This document shows positions 5,324-62,957 of a stretch of 64,000 nucleotides of DNA, piece by piece. The stretch's first letter is position 1; every line of letters begins with the position of its first letter. The translations under genes were made by a program, and so were the position numbers. Source of the DNA: Methyloligella sp. GL2 (lineage in GTDB: Bacteria; Pseudomonadota; Alphaproteobacteria; Rhizobiales; Methyloligellaceae); assembly GCF_013341275.1 (NCBI RefSeq), contig NZ_CP054476.1:1377501-1441500 (forward strand), given 5' to 3'. The notes beneath the pieces were generated by a model. The model was not told the origin of the DNA and did not search any database. It saw only the letters and a program-made list of their open reading frames with translations.

Positions 5324-6871
5324 ATGAACCGCCGGGAATTTTCGGTGGCACTTGGTGCAGCCGCGCTGGGCGCGGCCGGCGCGGGGCAGAAAGGCCTGAT
5401 CTCGACCGCCGCAGCGCAAGAGGCGCCTGCGAAGAATAACAATTCTCATTTCTCCCGCCGGACCGTCGTCGACCTGGCGAAGGATATGGCGAAGAAGCCG
5501 TTCCAGGCGCCGGCGCAGATCCCGGCGAGCTTCTCCAGCCTGTCTTACGACGACTACCGGAAGATCCGTTTCCGCAAGGACAAAGCCTTGTGGGCGGACA
5601 AGGATCTCGGCTTCACCGTGGAGCTGCTGCATACCGGCTTCGTGGTGCGCACGCCGGTACAGATTTACACGGTCGAGAACGGCATCGCCCAGCCGGTGAT
5701 CTATTCCTCGGAGCTGTTCGATTTCGGCGATCTGGACGTGCGCGCGCCGGACGGGACGGCGCTGTTCTCCGGCATCCGCATCAACGCGCCGATCAACGTG
5801 CTGCACCAGTACGACGAGGTGATGGTGTTCCAGGGCGCGAGCTATTTCCGCGGCCTCGGCGCCAATCAGAATTACGGCATCTCGGCGCGGGGGCTGGCGA
5901 TCGATACCGGCGAGCCGACCGGTGAGGAGTTTCCCTTCTTCCGCAGCTTCTGGATCGAGACGCCGCGCGCCGATTCCAAGACCATCACGGTGCATGCGCT
6001 GCTCGACAGCCCGAGCGTGACCGGCGCTTTCACCTTCGTAATCCGCCCCGGCGCCACCACGGTGTCCGACGTTACCGCCTCGCTGTTCGCCCGCACCGAC
6101 ATCACCCATTTGGGTCTCGCCCCGCTGACCAGCATGTATTTCTTCGATGCGCGCGAGCGGGGACGGTTCGACGATTTCCGCCCGGCGGTGCACGACTCAG
6201 ATACGCTGGCGATTGCCCGGGGCAATGACGAGTGGATCATGCGACCGCTGGCCAACCCGAAGACTCTGCAGATCAGCGCCTTCGCCGAGGACGCGCCGAT
6301 CGGTTTCGGCCTGCAGCAGCGGGAGACCGACTACGAGACCTACAAGGATCTGGAGTCGCGTTTCGAATTGCGGCCGAGCGCCTGGGTGCAGCCGAAATCG
6401 CCTTGGCGCAACGGACATGTTGAGCTTGTCGAAATTCCGACGAATTCGGAGACCAACGATAACATCGTCGCTTTCTGGCGCCCGCGGGCGACCCTGAAGG
6501 CGGGGGGAAATCTGACGTATTCCTATTGGCTCAGCTTCGGGCCGCCGGTCACCAATATCCGGCTGGCGCGGGTTCTGGAGACGCGGATCGGAATGGCATC
6601 GACGCGCAAGCGGCGCAAATTCGTGGTCGAGTTCGACGCGCCCCTGGAAGACGGGGTGCCGGTCTATCTCGGCTCCGATGTGGAGCCGCGGGTCAGCGCC
6701 TCGGCGGGACGTATCGATAATGTAGTCGGTCGTCATAATCCCATGACCGGCGGGTATCAGGTTAGCTTTGAAATGGATCCCGCCGATGTGGAACTTTCCG
6801 AACTGCGCCTTGTTCTAGCGCACAAGGGTCAGCCGATCAGCGAGACGTGGCTATATCGATGGACAGCATGA
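5324..6871 (+). CDS. opgG: Periplasmic glucan biosynthesis protein, OpgG/OpgD family, Tat-exported
   Basis: This is a member of the MdoG/OpgG-OpgD family, which acts in the periplasm on osmoregulated beta-glucan backbones. The protein has 515 residues from the ATG at 5324. That start fits better than an in-frame GTG at 5318 because GGGAG lies 7 nt upstream. The N-terminus reads MNRREFSVALGAAALGAAG and ends in TAAAQEA: a twin-arginine signal with a typical cleavage region, as in E. coli OpgD rather than the Sec-exported OpgG. The mature part begins with FSRRTVVDLAKDMAKKPFQ and contains the family-like segments SYDDYRKIRFR and ASYFRGLGANQNYGISARGL. The stop codon overlaps the opgH start (ATGA at 6868), so the two are translationally coupled. 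Whether it is functionally OpgG or OpgD is not decidable here. Confidence 0.93.
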   Translation: MNRREFSVALGAAALGAAGAGQKGLISTAAAQEAPAKNNNSHFSRRTVVDLAKDMAKKPFQAPAQIPASFSSLSYDDYRKIRFRKDKALWADKDLGFTVELLHTGFVVRTPVQIYTVENGIAQPVIYSSELFDFGDLDVRAPDGTALFSGIRINAPINVLHQYDEVMVFQGASYFRGLGANQNYGISARGLAIDTGEPTGEEFPFFRSFWIETPRADSKTITVHALLDSPSVTGAFTFVIRPGATTVSDVTASLFARTDITHLGLAPLTSMYFFDARERGRFDDFRPAVHDSDTLAIARGNDEWIMRPLANPKTLQISAFAEDAPIGFGLQQRETDYETYKDLESRFELRPSAWVQPKSPWRNGHVELVEIPTNSETNDNIVAFWRPRATLKAGGNLTYSYWLSFGPPVTNIRLARVLETRIGMASTRKRRKFVVEFDAPLEDGVPVYLGSDVEPRVSASAGRIDNVVGRHNPMTGGYQVSFEMDPADVELSELRLVLAHKGQPISETWLYRWTA

Positions 6872-8775
6872 GCGAACCTCTGGAAACGCTGGGCGGCGGT
6901 GCCGCCGGGGCCTTTTACCATGGCCTGACGCCTCCGGAGAATCCGTTGGAAATGCCGGAGCAGAGCCTGAAGAGCTGGTATGGCGAGCCGCCCAAGACGG
7001 CGTCCGGCCCGGCGCTGAAGGAGCATACGCTGGCCTCGCGCCTATTCGTCTTCGGTATCGCCGCCGTGCTCACGGTCTATGGCGTCTGGGGCATGTGGAA
7101 GGTGGTGGGGCAGAACGACGCAACCGGCCTGCAATATATGCTGGTGGTGCTGTTCGCCTTCAGCTTCACCTGGATCGCGCTGGCCGCGGCCAATGCGATG
7201 CTCGGTTTCTTTGCCCTGATTGCCCGGCTGGACTGGCGGCGCGGCATCGCTTTGCGCGGCAAGCTGTCGACGCGGACCGCGGTGCTGATGCCGGTCTATA
7301 ACGAAGACACCAGCAAGGTTTTCGAAAATCTCACCGAGATGGCCGAGGAGCTCGCCGCCTCGGGCAAGGCCTGGCATTTCGATTTCTTCGTCCTTAGCGA
7401 CACCACCAATCTCGCCATTGCGCGGCAGGAGCGCGAGGCGGCGCTTCGTCTGCGCCAGACCATGCTCGGCCGGCTCAATGTCTATTTCCGCCGCCGTCCG
7501 GAGAATGTCGGGCGCAAGGCCGGAAACATCGCCGACTTCGTGCGCAGCTGGGGCGGCAATTACGACTTCATGCTGGTGCTCGACGCTGACAGCTACATGA
7601 CCGCCGAGTCGATGATCGCGCTGGCCGAGGCGATGGAGGCGGACAGCAATGCCGGCCTGATCCAGACCGTGCCGCGGCTGGTCAACAAGAAGACGCTGTT
7701 CGCCCGCATGCAGCAATTCGCCACCGGCACATACGGTCCGGTGGTCTCCGCCGGGCTCGCCATGGTGCAGGGGCGAGAGGGCAATTACTGGGGCCATAAC
7801 GCGATCATCCGAACCCGGGCCTTCGCCAGCTCTTGCGGCTTACCCGTGCTGGCGGGGCGCAAGCCCTTCGGCGGCCATATCCTGAGCCACGATTTCGTCG
7901 AGGCGGCGCTGCTGCGGCGCGCCGGCTGGGACGTCTATATGCGTCCCGACATCGTCGGCAGCTACGAGGAGACGCCGCCGACCCTGACCGATCACGCGGT
8001 GCGCGACCGGCGCTGGGCGCAAGGCAATCTGCAGCACTCCAAGGTGATCGGGGCGAGCGGCCTGCATTGGATGAGCCGGCATCACCTGCTGACCGGCATC
8101 ATGAGCTATGTGGCTTCGCCGCTCTGGCTGATGTTCCTGGTGGTCGGGATCGCGCTGGCCTGGCAGGCCTCGGCCTATCAGCCCGACTATTTCCCCGACG
8201 CCCACGCGCTGTTCCCGACCTGGCCGCAATTCGATTCCCAGCGCGCCTGGACGCTGCTCGGCTTTTCCGCCGCGGTGCTATTGGCGCCGAAAGTGTTCGC
8301 CGTGCTCTACGCCATGACCAACAAGCGCATGCGCAAAGGGGCGGGCGGTCCGCTCGGCCTGGTGTTCAGCTTCCTGCTGGAGACTTTGCTCTCGGCGCTG
8401 CTGGCGCCGGTGTTGATGCTGCTGCAGACCGGTTTCATCGGCCAGATCCTGATTGCCCGGGATTCGGGCTGGAACCCGCAATGCCGCGACGACGGCACCG
8501 CCTCGCTGCTCGCCACGATCAAGGGCTACGGTTTCCATTCCGTCTTCGGCTTGGTGCTGGCGGGGATCACCGCCTACATCTCCTGGCAGCTCTTCTTCTG
8601 GCTGCTGCCGGTTTGGCTCGGCTTGGTGCTGGCGATTCCGCTGGTCTATCTCAGCTCGCTTCGCGCGGCCGGGCAGGGCGCGCGCGTCTTGCGCATCTTC
8701 CTCATTCCGGAAGAGCGCGAGGCAAGGCGGCGCCTGCGGCAGCCGGTCGCCGAGCCGGTGGCTGCCGCAAGCTGA
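6868..8775 (+). CDS. opgH: Glucans biosynthesis glucosyltransferase OpgH
   Basis: This is the inner-membrane GT2 enzyme that polymerises UDP-glucose into osmoregulated periplasmic glucans and feeds them to OpgG. I place the start at the ATG overlapping the opgG stop (6868), giving 635 residues. In-frame GTG 6847 and ATG 6859 are alternatives. Membrane segments lie near residues 55-75 and 85-110. The cytosolic GT domain has VLMPVYNED (about 140), LDADSY (about 237) and RRWAQGNLQHS (about 380), the QxxRW-like processivity site. A cluster of C-terminal membrane helices follows from about 400. It is shorter than the E. coli protein (about 847 aa), mainly for lack of the long N-terminal extension. 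Confidence 0.93.
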   Translation: MSEPLETLGGGAAGAFYHGLTPPENPLEMPEQSLKSWYGEPPKTASGPALKEHTLASRLFVFGIAAVLTVYGVWGMWKVVGQNDATGLQYMLVVLFAFSFTWIALAAANAMLGFFALIARLDWRRGIALRGKLSTRTAVLMPVYNEDTSKVFENLTEMAEELAASGKAWHFDFFVLSDTTNLAIARQEREAALRLRQTMLGRLNVYFRRRPENVGRKAGNIADFVRSWGGNYDFMLVLDADSYMTAESMIALAEAMEADSNAGLIQTVPRLVNKKTLFARMQQFATGTYGPVVSAGLAMVQGREGNYWGHNAIIRTRAFASSCGLPVLAGRKPFGGHILSHDFVEAALLRRAGWDVYMRPDIVGSYEETPPTLTDHAVRDRRWAQGNLQHSKVIGASGLHWMSRHHLLTGIMSYVASPLWLMFLVVGIALAWQASAYQPDYFPDAHALFPTWPQFDSQRAWTLLGFSAAVLLAPKVFAVLYAMTNKRMRKGAGGPLGLVFSFLLETLLSALLAPVLMLLQTGFIGQILIARDSGWNPQCRDDGTASLLATIKGYGFHSVFGLVLAGITAYISWQLFFWLLPVWLGLVLAIPLVYLSSLRAAGQGARVLRIFLIPEEREARRRLRQPVAEPVAAAS

Positions 8776-8818
8776 TCCGCTTTTCCCTCGATTGCCTTAC
8801 CCGCGCGAACGCGCCTGC

Positions 8819-11137
<2,319 letters not shown>

Positions 11138-11275
11138 CAGGGCCTCGTCTCGAAAAATGCGTCAAACGGCCAGCGCACAACACCCGCGCTGGTGCTCTCT
11201 CTTCGCCCCATGCTTCTCCTATATAGAGAGAGAAGCGGCCAGAGCCAAAAGACCGCGCCCCCGAGACGGCAAATT

Positions 11276-11290
11276 CCACTCTTGGAGTGG
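11276..11290. promoter_or_regulatory. 15-bp palindrome between copA and a membrane-protein gene
   Basis: CCACTCTTGGAGTGG is a perfect inverted repeat (6-bp arms, 3-bp centre) in the divergent intergenic region, about 140 bp from the copA start and 100 bp from the plus-strand start. On the plus strand TTGGAG, a 16-bp spacer and TAGAAT (near 11303-11308) could be a promoter overlapping it. It could be an operator, possibly metal-responsive, but it does not match the usual CueR site. A second dyad (CCAGCGC...GCGCTGG, 11170-11192) lies in the copA 5' leader. Confidence 0.3.
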
Positions 11291-11389
11291 CGGCAGGTTT
11301 GGCTAGAATGGCCGGCAGCGATTCAACTGGCCCGTGCCCGATAGAAAATGTGGCGAGCGGGGACCAAAAGCAAAGGAAGAGTACGCATC

Positions 11390-11953
11390 ATGGCGCAGAA
11401 GGACGGAGCGGCGGAGACGCTTTCGGGGTCGGCGAAGACGGGCATCTGGATCGGAGCCGGCATCGTCGCCAGCTTTCTGTTCAGCTGGGCCCTGGCCTGC
11501 ATCACGCCGTTCGCAGCGCTTGCCGCCATCGCCGCGCTGACCTTGTCGCGGCGCAATGCCTTTTTGATGGTCGGCGTCGCTTTCCTGATCAATCAGGCGG
11601 TGGGCTTCCTGCTGCTCGGCTATCCCCATACGCTCGATACCTATGGCTGGGGCGTTGCCATCGGCGTCGCGGCGCTTGCCGCCACCTATGTGGCGAGCCT
11701 TGCACCGGAGAAAAGCGACAGCAAAGTCGCGGTGATCGTCATGGGCTTCCTCGGCGCCTTCGTGGCGTATGAGCTGGTGCTGATGGCCGCGACCGCGGTG
11801 CTGCCGTCCGAGGGCGGGTTCAGTTTCGCGGTGATCGGCAAGGTCTTCTGGATCAACGCGCTCGCCTATGCCGCGTTCCTGGCGCTGCGCTGGGGCGGCG
11901 AGGCGATCGGCTTCTTCGCCGGCACCGGGCGCGGGCTGATCGCGGCGCGTTAG
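11390..11953 (+). CDS. Small polytopic membrane protein, function unknown
   Basis: The product has 187 residues. The ATG at 11390 is chosen because AAGGAAGA lies about 10 nt upstream; an in-frame ATG at 11348 has no such site. About five hydrophobic helices are visible: GIWIGAGIVASFLFSWALACI, AALAAIAALTL, AFLMVGVAFLINQAVGFLLL, GWGVAIGVAALAATYVASL, VIVMGFLGAFVAYELVLMA, with a last one near 150-165. Polar residues within the membrane (NQ in FLINQAVGF) suggest a transporter or sensor rather than a simple anchor. I do not recognise the family with certainty. The divergent neighbour is copA, but no metal-binding motif is present, so a copper role is only positional. Confidence 0.7.
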   Translation: MAQKDGAAETLSGSAKTGIWIGAGIVASFLFSWALACITPFAALAAIAALTLSRRNAFLMVGVAFLINQAVGFLLLGYPHTLDTYGWGVAIGVAALAATYVASLAPEKSDSKVAVIVMGFLGAFVAYELVLMAATAVLPSEGGFSFAVIGKVFWINALAYAAFLALRWGGEAIGFFAGTGRGLIAAR

Positions 11954-12110
11954 AGGCCCCCTGTCGGACAGGCTAAGCATCTAAGACCATTGCGCTTTCC
12001 ACCGAGTGGCTGCAGCGAATGTCGCGGTCTCTTGTGCGAGATTAAATCGCGCACGATATATCCTGGCAATGAAGGGCGGTATCCCGCCCCAAACTTGCAG
12101 GAGCATCGAT

Positions 12111-12815
12111 ATGCTGACACTTCGACGGGCCGAAGAGCGCGGCCGCGCTCAGTTCGGTTGGCTGGATAGCCGCCACAGCTTCTCTTTCGGACAGTATTAC
12201 GATCCGGCGCATATGGGCTTCGGCCCGTTGCGGGTGATCAACGAGGACCGAGTGGCGCCTGGGGGTGGGTTTCCGACCCATCCCCATAGCGACATGGAGA
12301 TCGTGACCTATGTGCTGTCCGGCGCGCTGGAGCATAAGGATAGTCTGGGCACGGGCTCGGTGATCCGCCCCGGCGACGTGCAGCGCATGTCGGCGGGGAC
12401 CGGCATCCGCCATAGCGAGTTCAACGCCTCGGACGAGGAGCCGGTGCATTTCCTGCAGATCTGGATCCTGCCGGAGGCCCGCGGTCTTGAGCCCTCCTAC
12501 GAGCAGAAGAGCTTCTCGGCGGAGGAGAGGCATGGCGGGTTCCGGCTGGTCGGATCGGCCGACGGGCGCGACGGCTCGGTGACCATCCACCGAGATGTGT
12601 CGCTCTATGCCGCCGTGCTCGATGACGGCGAGACCGCCGAGCTCAAGCTCGGAGAGAACCGTGCCGGCTGGCTGCAGCTTGCCCGCGGCAGCGCCGAGGT
12701 GAATGGGCAGCAGCTCTATCCGGGCGACGGGCTGTCCTTCGACGCGGCGGTCACCATCTCGGTGAAGGGAACTTCCGAAGCGGCGGAGGTGCTGTTCTTC
12801 GACATGGTGCCTTAG
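12111..12815 (+). CDS. Pirin family protein (YhhW-like bicupin)
   Basis: This is a 234-residue bicupin of the pirin family. Family members bind a metal and some act as quercetin 2,3-dioxygenases. The N-terminal cupin carries the pirin signature: [12 protein letters not shown], then [22 protein letters not shown] with the metal-binding His-x-His and downstream His and Glu ([23 protein letters not shown]). The length is that of the short YhhW type. The start at 12111 follows GCAGGAG at an ideal distance. The gene has its own terminator just downstream. Substrate cannot be told from sequence. Confidence 0.92.
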
Positions 12816-12842
12816 GCGCTGTCATGAGCATCTAAGACGAAG

Positions 12843-12885
12843 ATCCCCCAATGCCGGCGGTCCCGGGATTGGGGGATTTCTTTTT
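12843..12885 (+). terminator. Intrinsic terminator after the pirin gene
   Basis: A perfect 10-bp stem, ATCCCCCAAT (12843-12852) with ATTGGGGGAT (12868-12877), encloses a 15-nt loop and is followed by TTCTTTTT. It lies 28 bp after the pirin stop codon. Confidence 0.9.
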
Positions 12886-12993
12886 GCCACGTAGCGGATT
12901 CACCTTTGGTCGCTGCGTGGTTGTGCAGCTTAAGCTTTATGCAATCTCAGGTTCCGATGATGCGAGCTCCCGCTGGGAGAGGAGTGAGGCATC

Positions 12994-13722
12994 ATGTGCA
13001 AGTATTGTTCTGGAACGGCCGCGCCGGATCTCGACCGCCGCGGCGTGCTTTCGCTGGGGCTCGGTGCGGCGGCGGCGCTGCTCGCCGGCAACGCAAAGGC
13101 CAAGGCTGAAGATCAGCCGCCACGGCCGCAAAATGTGCTCGATCCCGATCAGGCGCTGGAGCGGCTGATGGTGGGCAATGAGCGCTATGTCAAAGGCACC
13201 GGCAAGACGCACGACTTCATCGCCGAACGACCGGCTCTGGTGCGCGGGCAGAATCCGTTTGCCGGCATTCTCTCCTGCGCCGACTCCCGCGTCGCGCCGG
13301 AGCTTGCCTTCGATACCGGACGCGGCGATCTCTTCGTGCTTCGGGTCGCCGGCAATTTCGTCAATCTCGATAATCTGGCGAGCTTCGAATATGCGGTGGC
13401 GGTGCTGAATGCGCCGCTTCTGATGGTGCTCGGCCACGAGGCTTGCGGCGCGGTCTCCTCCACCATCTCTTCCATTGAGGACGATACCACCTTGCCGGGA
13501 CATCTGCCGGCGCTGGTGAAGGCGCTCACCCCGGCGGTGAAGCAAGCCTCGGCGCAATCCCATGACGATCTTCTGGCGCGCGCCACCGAGGACAATGTGC
13601 GGTTGAATGTGGAGAAGCTGAAAACCGCCAGCCCAATCCTCGATAAGGCGGTGAAGGCCGGCAAGCTCAAGGTGGTGGGCGGCATTTACCGGCTTGAGAC
13701 CGGCAAGGTGGAGCTGCTCTGA
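12994..13722 (+). CDS. Beta-class carbonic anhydrase, probably Tat-exported
   Basis: This is a 242-residue zinc enzyme interconverting CO2 and bicarbonate. The zinc site is complete: CADSR (about residue 93, Cys ligand plus the Asp-Arg dyad) and GHEACGAV (His and Cys ligands about 55 residues later). The N-terminus MCKYCSGTAAPDLDRRGVLSLGLGAAAALLAG has a twin arginine, a hydrophobic core and an AKA-like cleavage region, so the enzyme probably acts in the periplasm. This type is often seen in alphaproteobacteria next to transporters or in CO2/pH adaptation. A GAGAGGAGTG ribosome-binding region precedes the ATG. The unit ends in a strong terminator. Confidence 0.92.
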   Translation: MCKYCSGTAAPDLDRRGVLSLGLGAAAALLAGNAKAKAEDQPPRPQNVLDPDQALERLMVGNERYVKGTGKTHDFIAERPALVRGQNPFAGILSCADSRVAPELAFDTGRGDLFVLRVAGNFVNLDNLASFEYAVAVLNAPLLMVLGHEACGAVSSTISSIEDDTTLPGHLPALVKALTPAVKQASAQSHDDLLARATEDNVRLNVEKLKTASPILDKAVKAGKLKVVGGIYRLETGKVELL

Positions 13723-54951: not shown

Positions 54952-55271
54952 TTGGGTCTCCTTTTGTTGTGCGTCTAAGCCCTAGTGCTTCGACGCAGGT
55001 TAGAGTTCCCCTATATCGTGACTCGCACCCTAACTTGCATAATAAATTTGCGGAATGGCTACAATTTCAGCAATCTTATGTCTGCATCCTCGCTGAGCAA
55101 CCTCGCCGAGACCGTCCGATAGGGCATCCCTGCAGATTTTGCGCCAGTTTCACGCACGTCGGAAAAATCCGCTAACCCCCACGAATTGTTACCGAAAAAT
55201 GAATAGGCTTCGGGCCGCTCGCTACCAGAAGGCGCAGAAGCGGCCGACACGCACGGGGTGCGGCCCGGCCT

Positions 55272-55286
55272 TGGCACAATTACTGC
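55272..55286 (+). promoter_or_regulatory. Sigma-54 promoter of glnII
   Basis: TGGCACAATTACTGC has the invariant GG and GC exactly 10 bp apart (GG 55273-55274, GC 55285-55286), close to the consensus TGGCACG-N4-TTGC. Transcription would start near 55298, giving an 80-nt leader. This fits NtrC/RpoN control of glnII. No convincing NtrC site is visible within 250 bp. Confidence 0.8.
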
Positions 55287-55377
55287 TTGCCGAAGGCTTA
55301 TAGGCCGTCGGTCTCCGATGGCTTGGATGGCGTTTGCGAGAGGCGCTTGCGCCTCACCACCACATGAAGGATTCGCA

Positions 55378-56415
55378 ATGACAAAGTACAAACTCGAGTA
55401 TATCTGGCTCGACGGGTATACCCCGGTGCCGAATCTGCGTGGCAAGACACAGATCAAAGAGTACGAGAACTTCCCCGGCTTGGATGAGCTTCCGCTGTGG
55501 GGCTTCGACGGCAGCTCCACCGAGCAGGCTGAAGGCAGCAGCTCGGACTGCGTGCTGAAGCCGATCCGTGTCTTCCCCGACGGCGCGCGCAAGGACGGTG
55601 TCCTGGTGCTCTGCGAGGTCATGATGCCCGACGGCACCCCGCACCCGTCCAACAAGCGGGCCACCATTCTGGACGATGACGGCGCCTGGTTCGGCTTTGA
55701 GCAGGAATACTTCTTCTATAAGGACGGCCGTCCGCTCGGCTTCCCGGCCGAGGGCTATCCGGCCCCGCAGGGCAAGTACTACACCGGCGTCGGCTATTCC
55801 CAGGTCGGTTCCATCGCCCGCGAGATCGTCGAGGAGCATCTCGATCTGTGCCTCTATGCCGGCATCAACCACGAAGGCATCAACGCCGAGGTGGCGAAGG
55901 GCCAGTGGGAGTTCCAGATCTTCGGCAAGGGCTCCAAGAAGGCGGCCGACGAGATGTGGATGGCGCGCTATCTGCTTGAGCGCCTGACCGAGAAATACGG
56001 CGTCGACATCGAGTATCACTGCAAGCCGCTGGGCGAGACCGACTGGAACGGCTCCGGCATGCACGCCAACTTCTCCACCACGTATTTGCGTGAGGTCGGC
56101 GGCAAGGAGTATTTCGAAGCTCTGATGGCGCAGTTCGAGAAGAACCTCGAGGACCACATCGCGGTGTACGGCCCGGACAACCACATGCGTCTGACCGGCC
56201 AGCACGAGACCGCGCCGTGGAACAAGTTCTCCTACGGTGTTGCCGACCGCGGTGCTTCGATCCGCGTGCCGCACTCCTTCCCGAAGAACGACTACAAGGG
56301 CTATCTGGAAGATCGCCGGCCGAACAGCCAGGGCGACCCCTACGCGATCGCTTCGCAGATCCTGAAGACGGTCTCGGAGGTTCCGACCAGCGGCTCGGCG
56401 ACCGCCGCCGCGTAA
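55378..56415 (+). CDS. glnII: Glutamine synthetase type II (GSII)
   Basis: This 345-residue enzyme makes glutamine from glutamate, ammonia and ATP. It is the eukaryote-like type II enzyme, heat-labile and not adenylylated. Signature segments are KYKLEYIWLDGYTPVPNLRGK (N-terminal, split), LPLWGFDGSSTEQAEGSSSD, FGFEQEYFFYKDGRPLG (metal Glu pair), KGQWEFQI, WNGSGMHANFST and RLTGQHETAPWNKFSYGVADRGASIRVP (key residues around 56190-56270). ATG 55378 follows GAAGGA. It is transcribed alone from a sigma-54 promoter and ends in a strong terminator. Confidence 0.97.
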   Translation: MTKYKLEYIWLDGYTPVPNLRGKTQIKEYENFPGLDELPLWGFDGSSTEQAEGSSSDCVLKPIRVFPDGARKDGVLVLCEVMMPDGTPHPSNKRATILDDDGAWFGFEQEYFFYKDGRPLGFPAEGYPAPQGKYYTGVGYSQVGSIAREIVEEHLDLCLYAGINHEGINAEVAKGQWEFQIFGKGSKKAADEMWMARYLLERLTEKYGVDIEYHCKPLGETDWNGSGMHANFSTTYLREVGGKEYFEALMAQFEKNLEDHIAVYGPDNHMRLTGQHETAPWNKFSYGVADRGASIRVPHSFPKNDYKGYLEDRRPNSQGDPYAIASQILKTVSEVPTSGSATAAA

Positions 56416-56518: not shown

Positions 56519-57937
56519 CTAAAGCACGAAGTCGTCCTCGGAGAGCTTGCCGGTGCCGACGAAGATCTCGAAATCGGGACGGCCGTCGCCATCGGTGTCG
56601 GCCTGGACGATGACGGTGTCGCCCTTATCCTTGTAGCGTAATTCGCCCTTCACATCGTGGAAGGGGTTCCGGCCGATCCAATCGAATTTCTGGTTGCCGC
56701 CTCCGGTCTTGGCGTCGATGCGGGAGAGGTCGATGAGGTCGTCGGTGCTGTCGAAATCGTGCACCCTGTCGCGGTGGCGGCCGACGCCGCTATCGCGCAG
56801 GCGGACGAAGACGAAGCTGTCCTCGCCGGGCCCGCCGAACATGCGGTCGAGCTGCCCGCGGCCGAGCAGGGTGTCGTTGCCAGCCTCGCCGAACAGCCGG
56901 TCGTTGTGCCCGCCGCCATTCAGCTTGTCGTTGCCGTCCCGGCCGAGCAGCACATCCCGTCCGCCGCGGCCGGACAGGATATTCACCTCGCCATTGCCGG
57001 TAATCTTGTCGCCGCCGCGGCCGCCGATGGCATTCTCGATGACCGTATCGGTGTGGATGATGACGTTATTGACGTCGCCATAGACGCTCGACATCGCGCC
57101 CGGCGTCAGGTCGATATCCTGATGCTGTGCCGTGCGCGAATAATTCAGCGTGTCGTTGCCGCCGTCGTCGTAGATGGTGAGGCTGGGGAAGCGAAAGCTG
57201 TCGAAATTGCCGCCGAACACGGCGCGGCCGGTCGTGTTGCCGACGCCATAGACCGTATCGCCGGGGCGGGTGGCGGCCGGCGCGCCGTAGATATCCTGGA
57301 TGGCGAGAATGTCCGCTTCCTGCGGGGTGAGCACATAGGCGAAGCTGCCGGTGACGGATGTGTTCTCGGTCTGGGTGAAATAAGACATCACCGAGAGTTG
57401 CCAGCTATCGTTGTCGAAGACGGCGTCTGCGGGATAGCTGGCGGTGCCGTTATAGGGGCCCTGATGGCCGAGACCGATGGCGTGGCCGATCTCGTGCACG
57501 AAGGTCTGGAAGCGGTAGCTGTAAAGATCTGTCGTCGGGCCGCCGTCCCAGCCCGGAGAGACATTGACCAGGGACGAGGTCAGATCGGTGCCGGAGACGT
57601 CGGATGAGGAAAACGCGCCGCCATAATCGTTGACGAAGGTGATATCGGCCGGGCCGGGGGTTCTGACGAAGTTCAGATTGCCGACATCGGACCAGAGCGC
57701 CACGGCGAGATCCACCATATCGCGATCGGCGGTCGGGATGTCCCGGACGTTGTAGGTGATGTTGAGCGGGTCGGGCCAGCTTCGCGGCTGCTCGCTATAG
57801 GCGGTCCAGAAACCGTTGACCAGGTAGTCGGCAAGCTGGCTATAGCTGCCGTCGGCCGCCGTCGCGCCGGCCGGCTGCGTGGCAGCGGTCTCGGTGGTTT
57901 CAGCGGAAAGCGCGAATGTGGCGCCGACCCTTGTCAT
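56519..57937 (-). CDS. Serralysin-like M10 metalloprotease with RTX repeats
   Basis: The 472-residue product is probably secreted by a type I system: no N-terminal signal peptide is present, and the C-terminus ends in acidic/hydrophobic DDFVL. The metzincin site is FVHEIGHAIGLGHQGPYNG (HExxHxxGxxH, about 150) with Met-turn SVMSYF (about 183). About eight Ca-binding RTX-type nonapeptides follow (residues about 300-375), such as GRDGNDKLN, GEAGNDTLL and GGPGEDSFVF. No ABC/MFP/TolC secretion genes are adjacent. Substrate unknown; relatives degrade proteins outside the cell. Confidence 0.92.
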   Translation of the reverse strand: MTRVGATFALSAETTETAATQPAGATAADGSYSQLADYLVNGFWTAYSEQPRSWPDPLNITYNVRDIPTADRDMVDLAVALWSDVGNLNFVRTPGPADITFVNDYGGAFSSSDVSGTDLTSSLVNVSPGWDGGPTTDLYSYRFQTFVHEIGHAIGLGHQGPYNGTASYPADAVFDNDSWQLSVMSYFTQTENTSVTGSFAYVLTPQEADILAIQDIYGAPAATRPGDTVYGVGNTTGRAVFGGNFDSFRFPSLTIYDDGGNDTLNYSRTAQHQDIDLTPGAMSSVYGDVNNVIIHTDTVIENAIGGRGGDKITGNGEVNILSGRGGRDVLLGRDGNDKLNGGGHNDRLFGEAGNDTLLGRGQLDRMFGGPGEDSFVFVRLRDSGVGRHRDRVHDFDSTDDLIDLSRIDAKTGGGNQKFDWIGRNPFHDVKGELRYKDKGDTVIVQADTDGDGRPDFEIFVGTGKLSEDDFVL

Positions 57938-58182: not shown

Positions 58183-58241
58183 GAATGGTGGGCGGTACTG
58201 GACTTGAACCAGTGACCCCTGCGATGTGAACACAGTGCTCT
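58183..58241. repeat. attL-like direct repeat: 3' fragment of tRNA-Val
   Basis: These 59 bp are identical to 62879-62937 and in the same orientation. They contain the 3' part of the tRNA-Val gene (CCA end, acceptor 3' strand, T arm, variable loop, anticodon arm and the first bases of the D stem), then diverge at CAACTTTGG. The 5' part of a tRNA is absent, so it is not a functional gene. This is the expected far-end attachment-site copy of an element integrated in the tRNA. Confidence 0.93.
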
Positions 58242-58346
58242 CAACTTTGGCGAGTGAGTTGGCTCTGGTATGCTACGCGTTGCTAGACATACGGGTAGCT
58301 TGGCTTGGGCAAGCGTGGAGGTCCAGGTGAGATCTTCATTGAGTAA

Positions 58347-61300
58347 ATGGGAATCATAGTGCAGGCGTCTTCCGCAACTCCCAGTTGGTGGTATGTCGAG
58401 AACGGACAGACCAAGGGCCCCTTCGATAGTCAGGCAATACAGGGACTGCTGCTCGATGGGCTGCTCGGGCCCGACTCGCTCATCTGGCGAGAAGGAATGT
58501 CAGGCTGGCAATCAGTTCGGGAGGTGGAGGAGCTTGCTCGTGTGCTTGAGCAGTCCTCAAAACAAGAACCTCCCGAGGACGGCATCCTGAACCGTCTTCT
58601 AGATGACGCGCGAAGGCGGCTGGTGGAGACGGGCACAAGAAACCGTCTGATCCACATAAATCGAGAAAATTCGAGAGCCAATGCGCTCAATATCATCAAC
58701 GAGCGCTCAGACGATATTTTCCAAATACTCAGAAGCGGTGGAAAGCGGATGTCGTTCATGGCGACCCGTAGGGACGAAACGCCTGTCGATAATGACGTTC
58801 CACTGCTCGAGACCGTCGTAGATAATCGTAAGCCATTCGACGAGGCCCGGTACACCGATAGCAAGCTTGAGACACCGCTCGGACCAGATGCATTGCAGAA
58901 GCGGCTGCTGAGGTTGGCGCGGGACGCGCGGACCGCCGAAGAGGAGCAGGGCATCAACATCCTCTTCCTGGCACTGGGCTTTCTCGGATGGTTTGAGGAC
59001 GAGACTTCGAACCTTAAGCGAGAGGCTCCCCTAATCTTGATTCCGGTTGAACTTGTGCGCAATTCGCGCACATCGACCTACGACTTGCGTTGCCGAGATG
59101 ATGACATTGTTGCGAACTTGCCATTGCAGGAGCGGTTGAGCGGAGATTTCGGGATCGACTTACCGGAAATCGAGGTGGATGAGCAAGACTGGTCGCCGTC
59201 CAGTTACTTTGACCGAGTTGAGGAGGTCATTGCTCATCAGACGAGATGGACCATTGATCGCGACGGGATGCAGCTTGGCTTCTTTTCATTTGCCAAACTG
59301 CTGATGTTTCGGGACCTGCATCCCGCCGCATGGGGTGAGGGTGGCTTGGCGGCATCCGAGATCGTGAAAGGATTGCTGCGGACCGGGTTTGAGGCCGAAA
59401 CGCCTCTCTTCCCTAAAGAGACTCGTCTCGACGAGATTTTGGAGCCAGCAGATATTATCCAGGTCGTCGACGCTGACGCATCACAGACAAAGGTTATTGA
59501 GGAAGTTCGCGCAGGTAGAAATCTTGTGGTTCAGGGACCGCCTGGAACTGGGAAATCGCAGACAATCACAAACATCATCGCTGCTGCGGTGCATGACGGG
59601 AAGACGGTCCTATTTGTTGCAGAAAAAATGGCAGCTCTATCGGTTGTTCATGACCGACTAAAGAAGGCGAACCTCAGCTCGACCTGTCTTGAGCTTCATT
59701 CACGTAGCGCCAATAAGAAAAAGTTCCTTGGTGAAATTGAACGTACTCTCAACGACGGCAGGACCGTTCCAGGTATGCCGCGAGATCCCGAGGCGCTCAG
59801 ACAGTTCCGCGATCAATTGAACGCAATAGAGCGACGGCTGCACCAGACCATACCGGGAACCGATACGACTCCATTTGGGTCGATGGCAATTATGAGCCGC
59901 CTTGCTGGACTTGGCGCGCCACCTCCCAAACTACATCAAAGCGAGCTTGCTCATCTGACCAGGAGGGACCTTGATGGAGTCGTCAGCCGCGTAGCTGCAT
60001 TTGGCCAACTGAAAACCGAGGTCGGAGTCCCAGAGCAGCATCCCTTTTTCGGTGTCGGGAATCTCCAGCTTCAACCGCTCGATATGCAAAGAGTCGGAGT
60101 GAAAATTGGCGATGCGATTTCTCACATTGAGGCTATCACCGATGGGTCTCGTCAGATTGCGGGCTGGTTGAGGCTTCGGCACGGGTCATTCGACGAGTGT
60201 CAGGTCCTCTTAAATGTTCTCGAGCTTATTGCAGCAGCGCCAGAGACTGCTGAGTCGTCATTGCATGTTGTAGCTGCCGTAGCTGAAAAGGCGCGGTTTG
60301 ATAGAGCGCTCCAGTTAGGGGCTGACTGGGCATCCTCAAAGGCGATGGCAAGCCAATTTCTTGAGGCGGCTTGGCAGGCTCCTGTTGCCCACCTGCGGAG
60401 TTCTGTGGCGAAAGGTGCGGGCTCTTTCTTTGCCAGACTGGGGCCTTCATACCGCTCTGCCTGTCGTGAACTGGCGACACTCGTCAAGGCCCCCCTTCCG
60501 AAAGATGCTCGCAAGAGACTTGCTCTAATCGATCAGCTCATCTCGCTTCAGGAGAAACGGCAGCGTTTCCAGAGCGAGTATATCTTCTTGCAACAATCGC
60601 TGGGAGGCTTGTGGTTGCAGGAAGACTCCGCCTTTACAGAGCTAAGAGAGGTCTCAGTTTGGTACGAGAAGGTCGTCAACGCGTGCGGAGATATCAATCC
60701 AAACCGTCTTGAAGAATGGGCCGCCTCGTCTGCTTCCTGTACGAATTGGGCAAATTGGCTCCGTCCTTCTCTTCTCGGGGCAAAGGCGGAACTGTCAGAA
60801 ATTGAGCAAACTCTGGCAATCTCGTCTAGACAGGTATTTGGGGCGCAGTCGTCGAGCGGAGCGCGCTTCCAAGATATTCTTAATCGTCTTGTGGCCATCA
60901 AAAATGAGCAGCCGCGATACTCGCAGTGGTGCCAATATCGACGGGGGGCTTCGGAACTTTCGAAGAGTGGCCTAGGTGAGCTTGTAAAGCGAATTGACAA
61001 GGGGGAGCTGACTCCGGCTGCTGCGAAGAATGAACTCAAGCTCGCTTACGCTGAGGCCGTTTGGAGGAGGGCGCTGCAAGAGTTTCCAGACCTAGATTCA
61101 ATCGCACAAACGGATCGACACAAAATCGTGCAGGCGTTTGGCCGCAGCGAGGTGACGAGACTGCAAGATGTCCAGCAATTGATCCAAGCAAAGCATCTAA
61201 GCCAATTGCCGACTGGCGCGGCCGGTCAGATGGCAGTCATCCGAGGCGAGATCGCAAAAAGGAAGCGTCATAAGCCGATTAGAAAGCTATTCTCGTCTGC

Positions 61301-62795
61301 CGGTTCGGCTTTGCAGAAGATCAAGCCAGTATTGCTGATGAGCCCGATCTCGGTTGCGCAATTTCTTCCTCCGAAGTCGGTTGAGTTTGACCTCTTGGTT
61401 ATTGACGAGGCGAGCCAGGTTCGGCCCGAGGATGCCCTTGGCGCATGCGCTCGTGCGAAGCAGATCGTAGTTGTCGGTGACCAAAAACAACTTCCACCAA
61501 CCTCGTTTTTCGACCGGCTCACCGGTAATGACCTCGACGGTGATGACGATGAAGAAGAAGAGGTATTGCGAGGGGCAGCACGAGCCGCTGAGATGGAGTC
61601 AATTCTGACGCTTTGCGAAGCGCGAAGCGTTTCTGGGAGGATGCTCGAATGGCACTATCGGTCTCGAGATCCATCTCTGATCGCAGTTTCGAATAGCGAA
61701 TTCTACCGCGGGGGTCTGGTCTTGCCGCCATCCCCTTTACAAGACGACCGTGACTACGGACTGCGTCTCGTCCAGGTGCCGGGGGTTTACACTAGCCGTT
61801 CACGGGGATCGGGTCGTCCCGGAACTAACAGGATCGAAGCTGAAGAGATTGTCAGTGCGATTGCTCGGCACGCGTCGGAGCATCAAGATCTCTCGCTTGG
61901 CATTGCGACGTTCTCAGCAAACCAACGAAACATGGTGACGGAGCTGCTCGAGCTCGAGCGACGGAAGAATGTGCGTCTCGATGATTTCTTACGGGAAGGA
62001 AAAACCGAGGACGTCTTTGTGAAGAACATCGAGAATGTTCAAGGAGATGAGCGTGACGTCATTCTGATTAGTGTGGGTTACGGGCCATTCCAGCCGGGAG
62101 GTAGATTGCCTTCGATGAACTTTGGTCCGGTGAATCTGGATGGGGGGGAGCGGAGGCTCAATGTGCTTTTTAGTCGAGCTCGTGTTCGCTGCGACGTCTT
62201 TGTTTCGTTTGACCCTGGGGATATCGACCTGAGCCGCACCACCAAAAATGGTCCTCGTATACTTAAGCGGTACCTCCAATACGCAAAGACAGGGCGGTTG
62301 GACGAGCAAATACCAACTGGTCGAGGGCCAGACTCTCCATTTGAAGAAGACGTTGCAGCTGTTATTCGCCGGTTAGGTTACGACGTTGACCACCAAGTTG
62401 GCAGTGCAGGATTCTTAATTGATCTCGGAGTGAAGCACCCCAGACGCTCGGGGCAATACATGGTAGCTGTTGAGTGCGATGGAGCGACATACCACAGTGC
62501 TCTCTGGGCCCGCGAACGTGACCGGATGCGTCAGGAGGTACTCGAGCATCTTGGTTGGCACTTCCATCGGATATGGAGCACCGACTGGTTTCATCGTCGT
62601 GAAAGCGAAATCGAACGCCTGAAACAGGCATTGGACCAAGTTACAAGGTCTACTCACGGCGGAATCGATATTGAAGGTGCAAACCAAGGATGGGCTAGTG
62701 TAGCCGAACTACCAGATGAGGATGACGACGGCGCCGGCGAGGTGGCTATTGTCACGCCACGAGCACCGTCAGACGTCGAACTATCCCGCTATTGA
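58347..62795 (+). CDS. Giant GYF-DUF4011-SF1 helicase-nuclease, likely defence protein
   Basis: The 1482-residue product has these parts. (1) GYF_2-like domain (10-60: WWYVENGQTKGPFDSQAIQG, REGMSGWQSV). (2) DUF4011-like region (about 85-260: LVETGTRNRLIHINRE, LGFLGWFED, LILIPVELVR). (3) SF1 helicase, UPF1-like, split by a long helical insert: Walker A GPPGTGKS at 397, Walker B VIDEAS about 1018, VVGDQKQLPP about 1041, LEWHYRSRDPSL, ENVQGDERDVILIS about 1229, RRLNVLFSRAR. (4) C-terminal PD-(D/E)XK-like nuclease of the MTES_1575 type: LIDLGV, VAVECDGATYHS (about 1374), RIWSTDWFH. It is the only gene of the tRNA-Val island. Similar helicase-nuclease proteins occur in defence islands; the specific system is unnamed to my knowledge. 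The start ATG has a weak ribosome-binding site. Confidence 0.85.
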   Translation: MGIIVQASSATPSWWYVENGQTKGPFDSQAIQGLLLDGLLGPDSLIWREGMSGWQSVREVEELARVLEQSSKQEPPEDGILNRLLDDARRRLVETGTRNRLIHINRENSRANALNIINERSDDIFQILRSGGKRMSFMATRRDETPVDNDVPLLETVVDNRKPFDEARYTDSKLETPLGPDALQKRLLRLARDARTAEEEQGINILFLALGFLGWFEDETSNLKREAPLILIPVELVRNSRTSTYDLRCRDDDIVANLPLQERLSGDFGIDLPEIEVDEQDWSPSSYFDRVEEVIAHQTRWTIDRDGMQLGFFSFAKLLMFRDLHPAAWGEGGLAASEIVKGLLRTGFEAETPLFPKETRLDEILEPADIIQVVDADASQTKVIEEVRAGRNLVVQGPPGTGKSQTITNIIAAAVHDGKTVLFVAEKMAALSVVHDRLKKANLSSTCLELHSRSANKKKFLGEIERTLNDGRTVPGMPRDPEALRQFRDQLNAIERRLHQTIPGTDTTPFGSMAIMSRLAGLGAPPPKLHQSELAHLTRRDLDGVVSRVAAFGQLKTEVGVPEQHPFFGVGNLQLQPLDMQRVGVKIGDAISHIEAITDGSRQIAGWLRLRHGSFDECQVLLNVLELIAAAPETAESSLHVVAAVAEKARFDRALQLGADWASSKAMASQFLEAAWQAPVAHLRSSVAKGAGSFFARLGPSYRSACRELATLVKAPLPKDARKRLALIDQLISLQEKRQRFQSEYIFLQQSLGGLWLQEDSAFTELREVSVWYEKVVNACGDINPNRLEEWAASSASCTNWANWLRPSLLGAKAELSEIEQTLAISSRQVFGAQSSSGARFQDILNRLVAIKNEQPRYSQWCQYRRGASELSKSGLGELVKRIDKGELTPAAAKNELKLAYAEAVWRRALQEFPDLDSIAQTDRHKIVQAFGRSEVTRLQDVQQLIQAKHLSQLPTGAAGQMAVIRGEIAKRKRHKPIRKLFSSAGSALQKIKPVLLMSPISVAQFLPPKSVEFDLLVIDEASQVRPEDALGACARAKQIVVVGDQKQLPPTSFFDRLTGNDLDGDDDEEEEVLRGAARAAEMESILTLCEARSVSGRMLEWHYRSRDPSLIAVSNSEFYRGGLVLPPSPLQDDRDYGLRLVQVPGVYTSRSRGSGRPGTNRIEAEEIVSAIARHASEHQDLSLGIATFSANQRNMVTELLELERRKNVRLDDFLREGKTEDVFVKNIENVQGDERDVILISVGYGPFQPGGRLPSMNFGPVNLDGGERRLNVLFSRARVRCDVFVSFDPGDIDLSRTTKNGPRILKRYLQYAKTGRLDEQIPTGRGPDSPFEEDVAAVIRRLGYDVDHQVGSAGFLIDLGVKHPRRSGQYMVAVECDGATYHSALWARERDRMRQEVLEHLGWHFHRIWSTDWFHRRESEIERLKQALDQVTRSTHGGIDIEGANQGWASVAELPDEDDDGAGEVAIVTPRAPSDVELSRY

Positions 62796-62878
62796 CCTGC
62801 GTCCCCTGGAGCCTCCTTGAGCTAGGCTTCTTGGGAGGACCAAGCCTCTGCAGCTACAGCGCAGTCTTCAAAGTGTGG

Positions 62879-62937
62879 GAATGGTGGGCGGTACTGGACT
62901 TGAACCAGTGACCCCTGCGATGTGAACACAGTGCTCT
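62879..62937. repeat. attR-like direct repeat within tRNA-Val
   Basis: This is the second copy of the 59-bp repeat (see 58183-58241), here forming positions 1-56 from the 3' end of the intact tRNA gene plus three flanking bases. The repeat ends within the D arm, so integration kept the tRNA whole. Confidence 0.93.
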
Positions 62938-62957
62938 ACCAGCTGAGCTAACCGCCC
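62882..62957 (-). tRNA. tRNA-Val(CAC)
   Basis: This is a 76-nt gene read on the minus strand. The acceptor stem is GGGCGGT / ACCGCCC, the D stem GCTC / GAGC, and the anticodon stem CTGTG / CGCAG around loop TTCACAT, giving anticodon CAC (codon GTG). The T arm is ACTGG-TTCAAGT-CCAGT. Discriminator A and encoded CCA follow. It is the integration site of the adjacent 4.7-kb island. Confidence 0.97.

Follow-up and report, generated by a model that had tools for sequence, protein, structure and literature searches.

A single gene encoding a large helicase-nuclease lies between a tRNA gene and a perfect copy of the 3' part of that tRNA gene, and no integrase lies beside it. How did such an arrangement arise, and what does the gene do? 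The locus was analyzed within a window of 64,000 nucleotides of the Methyloligella sp. GL2 genome, and positions refer to this window. The features are listed below.

55258-56415, plus strand: glnII-like gene, named by sequence reading; native 3'-side neighbour of tRNA-Val in several relatives
56519-57937, minus strand: M10/serralysin-like peptidase ORF (family by sequence reading), the last gene beyond the distal repeat
58183-58241: distal attachment repeat, 59 bp, the displaced 3' part of tRNA-Val; 100% identity to 62879-62937
58242-58346: left inner spacer, 105 bp; no ORF and no internal repeats found in the sequence
58347-62795, plus strand: large ORF, 4,449 bp, 1,482 aa, PDC-S37-type candidate defence protein
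62796-62878: right inner spacer, 83 bp; no ORF and no internal repeats found in the sequence
62879-62937: tRNA-side attachment repeat, 59 bp; 100% identity to 58183-58241
62882-62957, minus strand: tRNA-Val(CAC) (ARAGORN), the target gene, rebuilt by the island end; the same tRNA is present in relatives

Boundaries of the island and the native tRNA-Val locus

The first-pass annotation had described a perfect copy of the 3' part of tRNA-Val(CAC), and comparison of the two repeats bore this out. The 59-bp copies are in direct orientation, 4,696 bp apart from start to start. The block corresponds to tRNA positions 21-76 plus 3 bp, so that the whole anticodon stem-loop is included. It occurs twice in the genome (one contig, 3.23 Mb), at the two island ends, and its next-best match was tRNA-Val(GAC) at 86%. 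Chance is ruled out for a perfect tRNA-derived repeat of this length.

An ORF search between the repeats revealed 58347-62795 as the sole large ORF, in agreement with the earlier claim that one gene fills this space. The earlier observation of lower GC and different codon use was also confirmed, against neighbour averages that are approximate because ORFs were called mechanically and some are possibly spurious: the GC content was 0.544 compared with a mean of 0.643 (SD 0.021; 53 ORFs of at least 200 aa), GC3 was 0.558 compared with 0.763 (SD 0.099), and the codon-usage distance was 0.504 compared with a mean of 0.287 (SD 0.071). Since the highest distance among the other ORFs was 0.517, that of the island gene is high, not unique. 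ORF and Pfam domain searches found no recombinase within 58183-62957, as the first reading had held, and no relaxase domain, and the single ORF is not a replication, packaging or other phage-related gene by domain search. A scan for the sigma-70 consensus gave zero matches, and the right inner junction was unmatched in IMG/VR.

The island gene was absent from all 29 other genomes of the family, including that of the sole congener (G001), in which tRNA-Val is intact. In relatives, tRNA-Val is flanked on its 5' side by a phosphoglycolate-phosphatase-like gene with its neighbours, and several have the glnII-like gene on the 3' side (82-88% identity, 1.1 kb to several kb from the tRNA). At one such locus (L138), glnII, a small DoxX-like ORF and tRNA-Val all lie within about 1.1 kb; in L142, only about 0.1 kb separates the end of a different conserved gene from tRNA-Val. 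In the studied genome, the complete tRNA keeps the 5' context, and the peptidase ORF and glnII lie outside the 59-bp fragment. By gene order, the native synteny is split across the island ends, as predicted for integration into the 3' part of a tRNA gene. The outer junction is identical in no relative, and the empty site is thus shown by gene order, not per base. The proposed comparison with close relatives therefore showed that this tRNA is unoccupied in some of them and holds different cargo in others, and the layout of an integrated island was upheld.

If the gene were an ordinary resident and the repeat a tRNA pseudogene that lies next to it by chance, the absence of an integrase would be accounted for, and nothing else. 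The rest of the family lacks the gene, its GC is atypical, the repeat occurs at the two ends only, and the native synteny is split; the uninterrupted tRNA loci of relatives without the gene contradict this explanation. We rejected it as extremely improbable.

The 1,482-aa protein and its homologues

Pfam domains of the protein were GYF_2 (residues 14-63), DUF4011 (91-264), pieces of an SF1 helicase (AAA_11 and AAA_12) and MTES_1575 (1332-1429), a restriction-endonuclease-like PD-(D/E)xK nuclease domain. The best PADLOC match was PDC-S37 (1,648 bits, profile positions 6-1354 of 1550); the protein matches the core of this profile, and the C-terminal part, the DUF3320 region, is absent. The claim that the cargo is a candidate defence gene was supported by these domains and this match. 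Scores for ProA (NCBIfam NF058533, 1,260 bits) and Hhe (NF042953, 968 bits) were under the cut-offs of 1500 and 2000 bits, respectively.

When the protein was aligned to six homologues with which it shares 45-53% identity, the segments GPPGTGKSQ, DEASQ, GDxxQLPP, NVQGDERD and nuclease ID...ECDG proved to be conserved. The N-terminal extension holding GYF_2 was present in the island protein and in none of the six homologues, and the island protein ends short of the C-terminal region in which Pfam places DUF3320 in three homologues (L056-L058). As judged from its domains, the protein is a new arrangement of the DUF4011 helicase-nuclease, with GYF_2 and without DUF3320. Because the DUF3320 region of the homologues is missing, the protein might be truncated and inactive; with its domains and catalytic motifs present, it is apparently intact. 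A GYF_2-DUF4011 fusion was not seen among plasmid records, and matches to solved structures were merely local, to ATPase and GYF domains. Phage records gave a single distant match, a single-sequence scan of IMG/VR gave no relatives, and none of the papers found mentions PDC-S37.

A homologue with 54% identity on an IMG/VR contig (L181) directly follows BREX genes. A second homologue (L058) adjoins type I R-M genes, and a third, on a conjugative plasmid (L180), adjoins DUF4297-HerA. These neighbours make a defence role likely for the island gene, which is, by guilt by association, a likely candidate anti-phage gene. From the respective families, foreign DNA would be sensed or processed by the SF1 helicase motor and cut by the C-terminal PD-(D/E)xK domain, and the N-terminal GYF_2 is probably a partner-binding module. 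The BREX genes on the IMG/VR contig (L181:2-14647) are PglX, present twice, PglZ and BrxL; a 1-kb repeat links both PglX copies, suggesting PglX duplication.

The first-pass annotation had raised a class of minimal defence islands, defined by recurrence of homologues at tRNA 3' ends. Five of 45 other homologue loci were near a tRNA (L145, L149, L155, L171 and L175), and tRNA-derived repeats were found at two (L145 and L149). The other three lie downstream of tRNAs and have no tRNA-derived repeat of about 12-13 bp or more; the remaining loci are away from tRNAs, in a sample that consists mostly of draft genomes and includes some short flanks. A general location of homologues at tRNA 3' ends was therefore rejected, and a class of minimal tRNA islands defined by this gene is not established.

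One of the two loci is an 8.3-kb contig of a gammaproteobacterial MAG (L145:40-7709; JABIVN010000150.1), in which a full-length PDC-S37 gene with 53% identity is bounded by tRNA-Met(CAT) on one side and, on the other, by a 52-bp repeat that matches the 3' part of this tRNA perfectly. The integrase ORF of this island lacks its N-terminal region and starts beside the start of the defence gene. Another integrase, full-length and distinct from the first, lies past the second repeat, forming a tandem element that shares one tRNA. In the other locus, from a Sneathiella MAG (L149), a related gene lies between tRNA-Ser and a 245-bp repeat (90.6%) that begins in the tRNA-Ser end, with transposase-like genes inside.

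Other insertions at tRNA-Val(CAC), integrases and origin of the island

Genome comparisons, several of which rest on draft contigs, indicate that tRNA-Val(CAC) is an integration hotspot in the family. In one genome (G010), a repeat of 33 bp accompanies an island of 13.8 kb that encodes an Arm-type integrase, type I R-M and AbiEi/AbiEii; in another (G005), the repeat measures 26 bp and the island, which also encodes an integrase, 11.3 kb. On two partial contigs, tRNA fragments of 53 bp (94%; G011) and 55 bp (98%; G003) adjoin an integrase gene, and a 61-bp tRNA-Val(CAC) fragment was found in G015.

Two smaller insertions resemble the studied island in having no integrase. In G029 (contig 23; L134:11761-14069), a 24-bp repeat accompanies a 2.2-kb low-GC insertion at tRNA-Val(CAC), which contains a trypsin-like gene and one unassigned ORF; its distal repeat occupies the position of the tRNA in G028. 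In G025 (contig 18; L140:2446-4296), tRNA-Val(CAC) is interrupted by about 1.7 kb of inserted DNA, and the two parts of the tRNA overlap by 12 bp at the anticodon. This insertion carries one RhuM-family gene (PADLOC PDC-S05) and brings its own divergent complete tRNA-Val(CAC), and G026 (L132:2449-2527) is its colinear empty counterpart. The recurring feature is thus the site, not the gene: small integrase-less tRNA-Val insertions with differing cargo. The sister gene tRNA-Val(GAC) in G021 (contig 28; L139 oriented 5490-13691) holds an island of 8.1 kb in which a tyrosine integrase gene and a type IIG R-M gene are found.

Repeat ends were converted arithmetically to tRNA positions. Blocks including the anticodon were those of the studied island (21-79), G011 (27-79), G003 (24-78) and G015 (16-76), together with the G025 overlap (28-39), whereas those of G005 (54-79), G010 (46-78) and G029 (56-79) cover the tRNA 3' end only. 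This difference suggests that two integrase specificities probably share tRNA-Val(CAC). For tRNA integrases, longer repeat blocks point to crossover in the anticodon loop. Judging from its block length, the studied island probably had its crossover in the anticodon stem-loop.

A PF00589 family search of the one-contig genome revealed three tyrosine recombinases, two of which resemble XerC and XerD by sequence. The third, the sole non-Xer one, lies inside a separate tRNA-Phe(GAA) island whose 48-bp repeat has the core GGACTGAAAATCC. This core is unlike the Val core, which makes this integrase an unlikely helper and leaves no cognate helper resident among PF00589 tyrosine integrases. The earlier suggestion to look for a tyrosine integrase with an att site matching the 59-bp repeat thus gave none in this genome-wide search. 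In the tRNA-Phe(GAA) island (L075:293-10064; G000 about 3008292-3018063), the second tRNA island of this genome, the integrase adjoins the tRNA and the perfect repeat lies 9.7 kb away. Elsewhere in the genome (L074:1312-3244; G000 about 714311-716243), a direct repeat of 153-156 bp (94%) flanks a small low-GC segment with ORFs of 336 aa and 97 aa, the latter Cas2-like by eye.

These results are probably best explained by a recent tyrosine-integrase insertion, with crossover probably in the anticodon stem-loop; what remains is an island of the CIME type that has a single gene and lacks an integrase. A tyrosine integrase would have joined the chromosomal tRNA gene to an attP that contained the 3' part of tRNA-Val(CAC). 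The repeat and the synteny show that the tRNA was restored by the incoming copy and that the far end is marked by the 3' fragment which this copy displaced. The insertion is judged recent because the unselected tRNA fragment is still perfect. The ancestor was probably a small element with an integrase and a defence gene, similar to that of L145, from which the integrase was then lost; no integrase remnant is visible in the island, and its former integrase is therefore one that we infer. By analogy, the shortened integrase beside the same gene in L145 favours loss from a two-gene ancestor. The present element could move only by a same-specificity integrase acting in trans.

Alternatively, the island may be a long-standing hitchhiker, a unit of att, defence gene and att for which other tRNA-Val islands supply the integrase in trans, much as integron integrases serve CALINs. 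The two other insertions without an integrase that the family has at this tRNA (the 1.7-kb RhuM and 2.2-kb trypsin-like insertions) agree with such movement, as do the sister-species islands that carry an integrase and whose att blocks overlap, and so do the perfect repeat, the absence of an integrase remnant, and the tandem elements of L145 that share one tRNA. However, the genome has no resident helper by the PF00589 search, the cassette has no second copy elsewhere, and the other mini-insertions differ in cargo and in part also in att block; independent decay histories may apply to them. We regard this alternative as rather unlikely. The recurrence of integrase-less insertions at tRNA-Val leaves room for habitual mobilisation in trans; the studied island may rely on an integrase acting in trans, and integrase loss is at least as likely. 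A broader proposal, that cassettes of one or two genes and no integrase, several of them with candidate defence genes, dock at tRNA-Val(CAC) in the family and are moved in trans by the integrases of other islands that use this tRNA, as a chromosomal cassette system on tRNA att sites, is speculative and seems unlikely.

The island could also be the inert remnant of a much larger one after internal deletion, with the defence gene merely left over. The DUF3320 region is missing at the tRNA-side end of the island, and island decay at att sites is common (PMC5704250), both as such a deletion would have it. Nevertheless, the sole ORF spans the island nearly end to end with no pseudogene pieces, the protein motifs are intact and the repeat is still perfect, and this origin is improbable.

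Many genomic islands have no obvious means of movement, and bacterial defence genes turn over fast. One gene with perfect att sites and no integrase is near the smallest possible unit of defence-gene exchange. Since sister species have, at this site, islands that carry an integrase and overlap in specificity, mobilisation in trans is directly testable.

Comparison with known systems

PDC-S37, a candidate anti-phage family, and the named anti-phage proteins ProA and Hhe share with the island protein a core of DUF4011, SF1 helicase and MTES_1575, with 45-54% identity to the nearest homologues. The island protein differs from them in its extra N-terminal GYF_2 and the lack of a C-terminal DUF3320, and it scores below the NCBIfam cut-offs for ProA and Hhe.

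P4-like satellites, PICI, PICMI and tycheposons are also small, are often at tRNA genes and can carry defence genes. They differ from the island, which has neither the integrase nor the replication or packaging genes of phage satellites, nor any other phage-related gene; the integrase that an autonomous island carries next to its att site is likewise absent within 58183-62957. CALINs use integron integrases and have attC sites, whereas the island has tRNA att sites. Hitcher elements, including CALINs, depend on a recombinase encoded elsewhere (PMC11389934), and the island is alike only if its own recombinase is encoded elsewhere.

The closest named category is the CIME (cis-mobilizable element), an element that lost its integration and transfer genes and keeps attL and attR (PMC5704250); more broadly, the hitchers come closest (PMC11389934). 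As in a CIME, both att sites are kept, here as the perfect 59-bp repeat, there are no integration or transfer genes, and the tRNA is used by complete islands in relatives. It differs in having one gene only, with no conjugation remnants and no remnant genes of an ICE or IME, and the likeness is anatomical. Islands of this kind are known; this one stands out by its minimum of a single gene, by a tRNA that is occupied repeatedly without an integrase, and by a new protein architecture.
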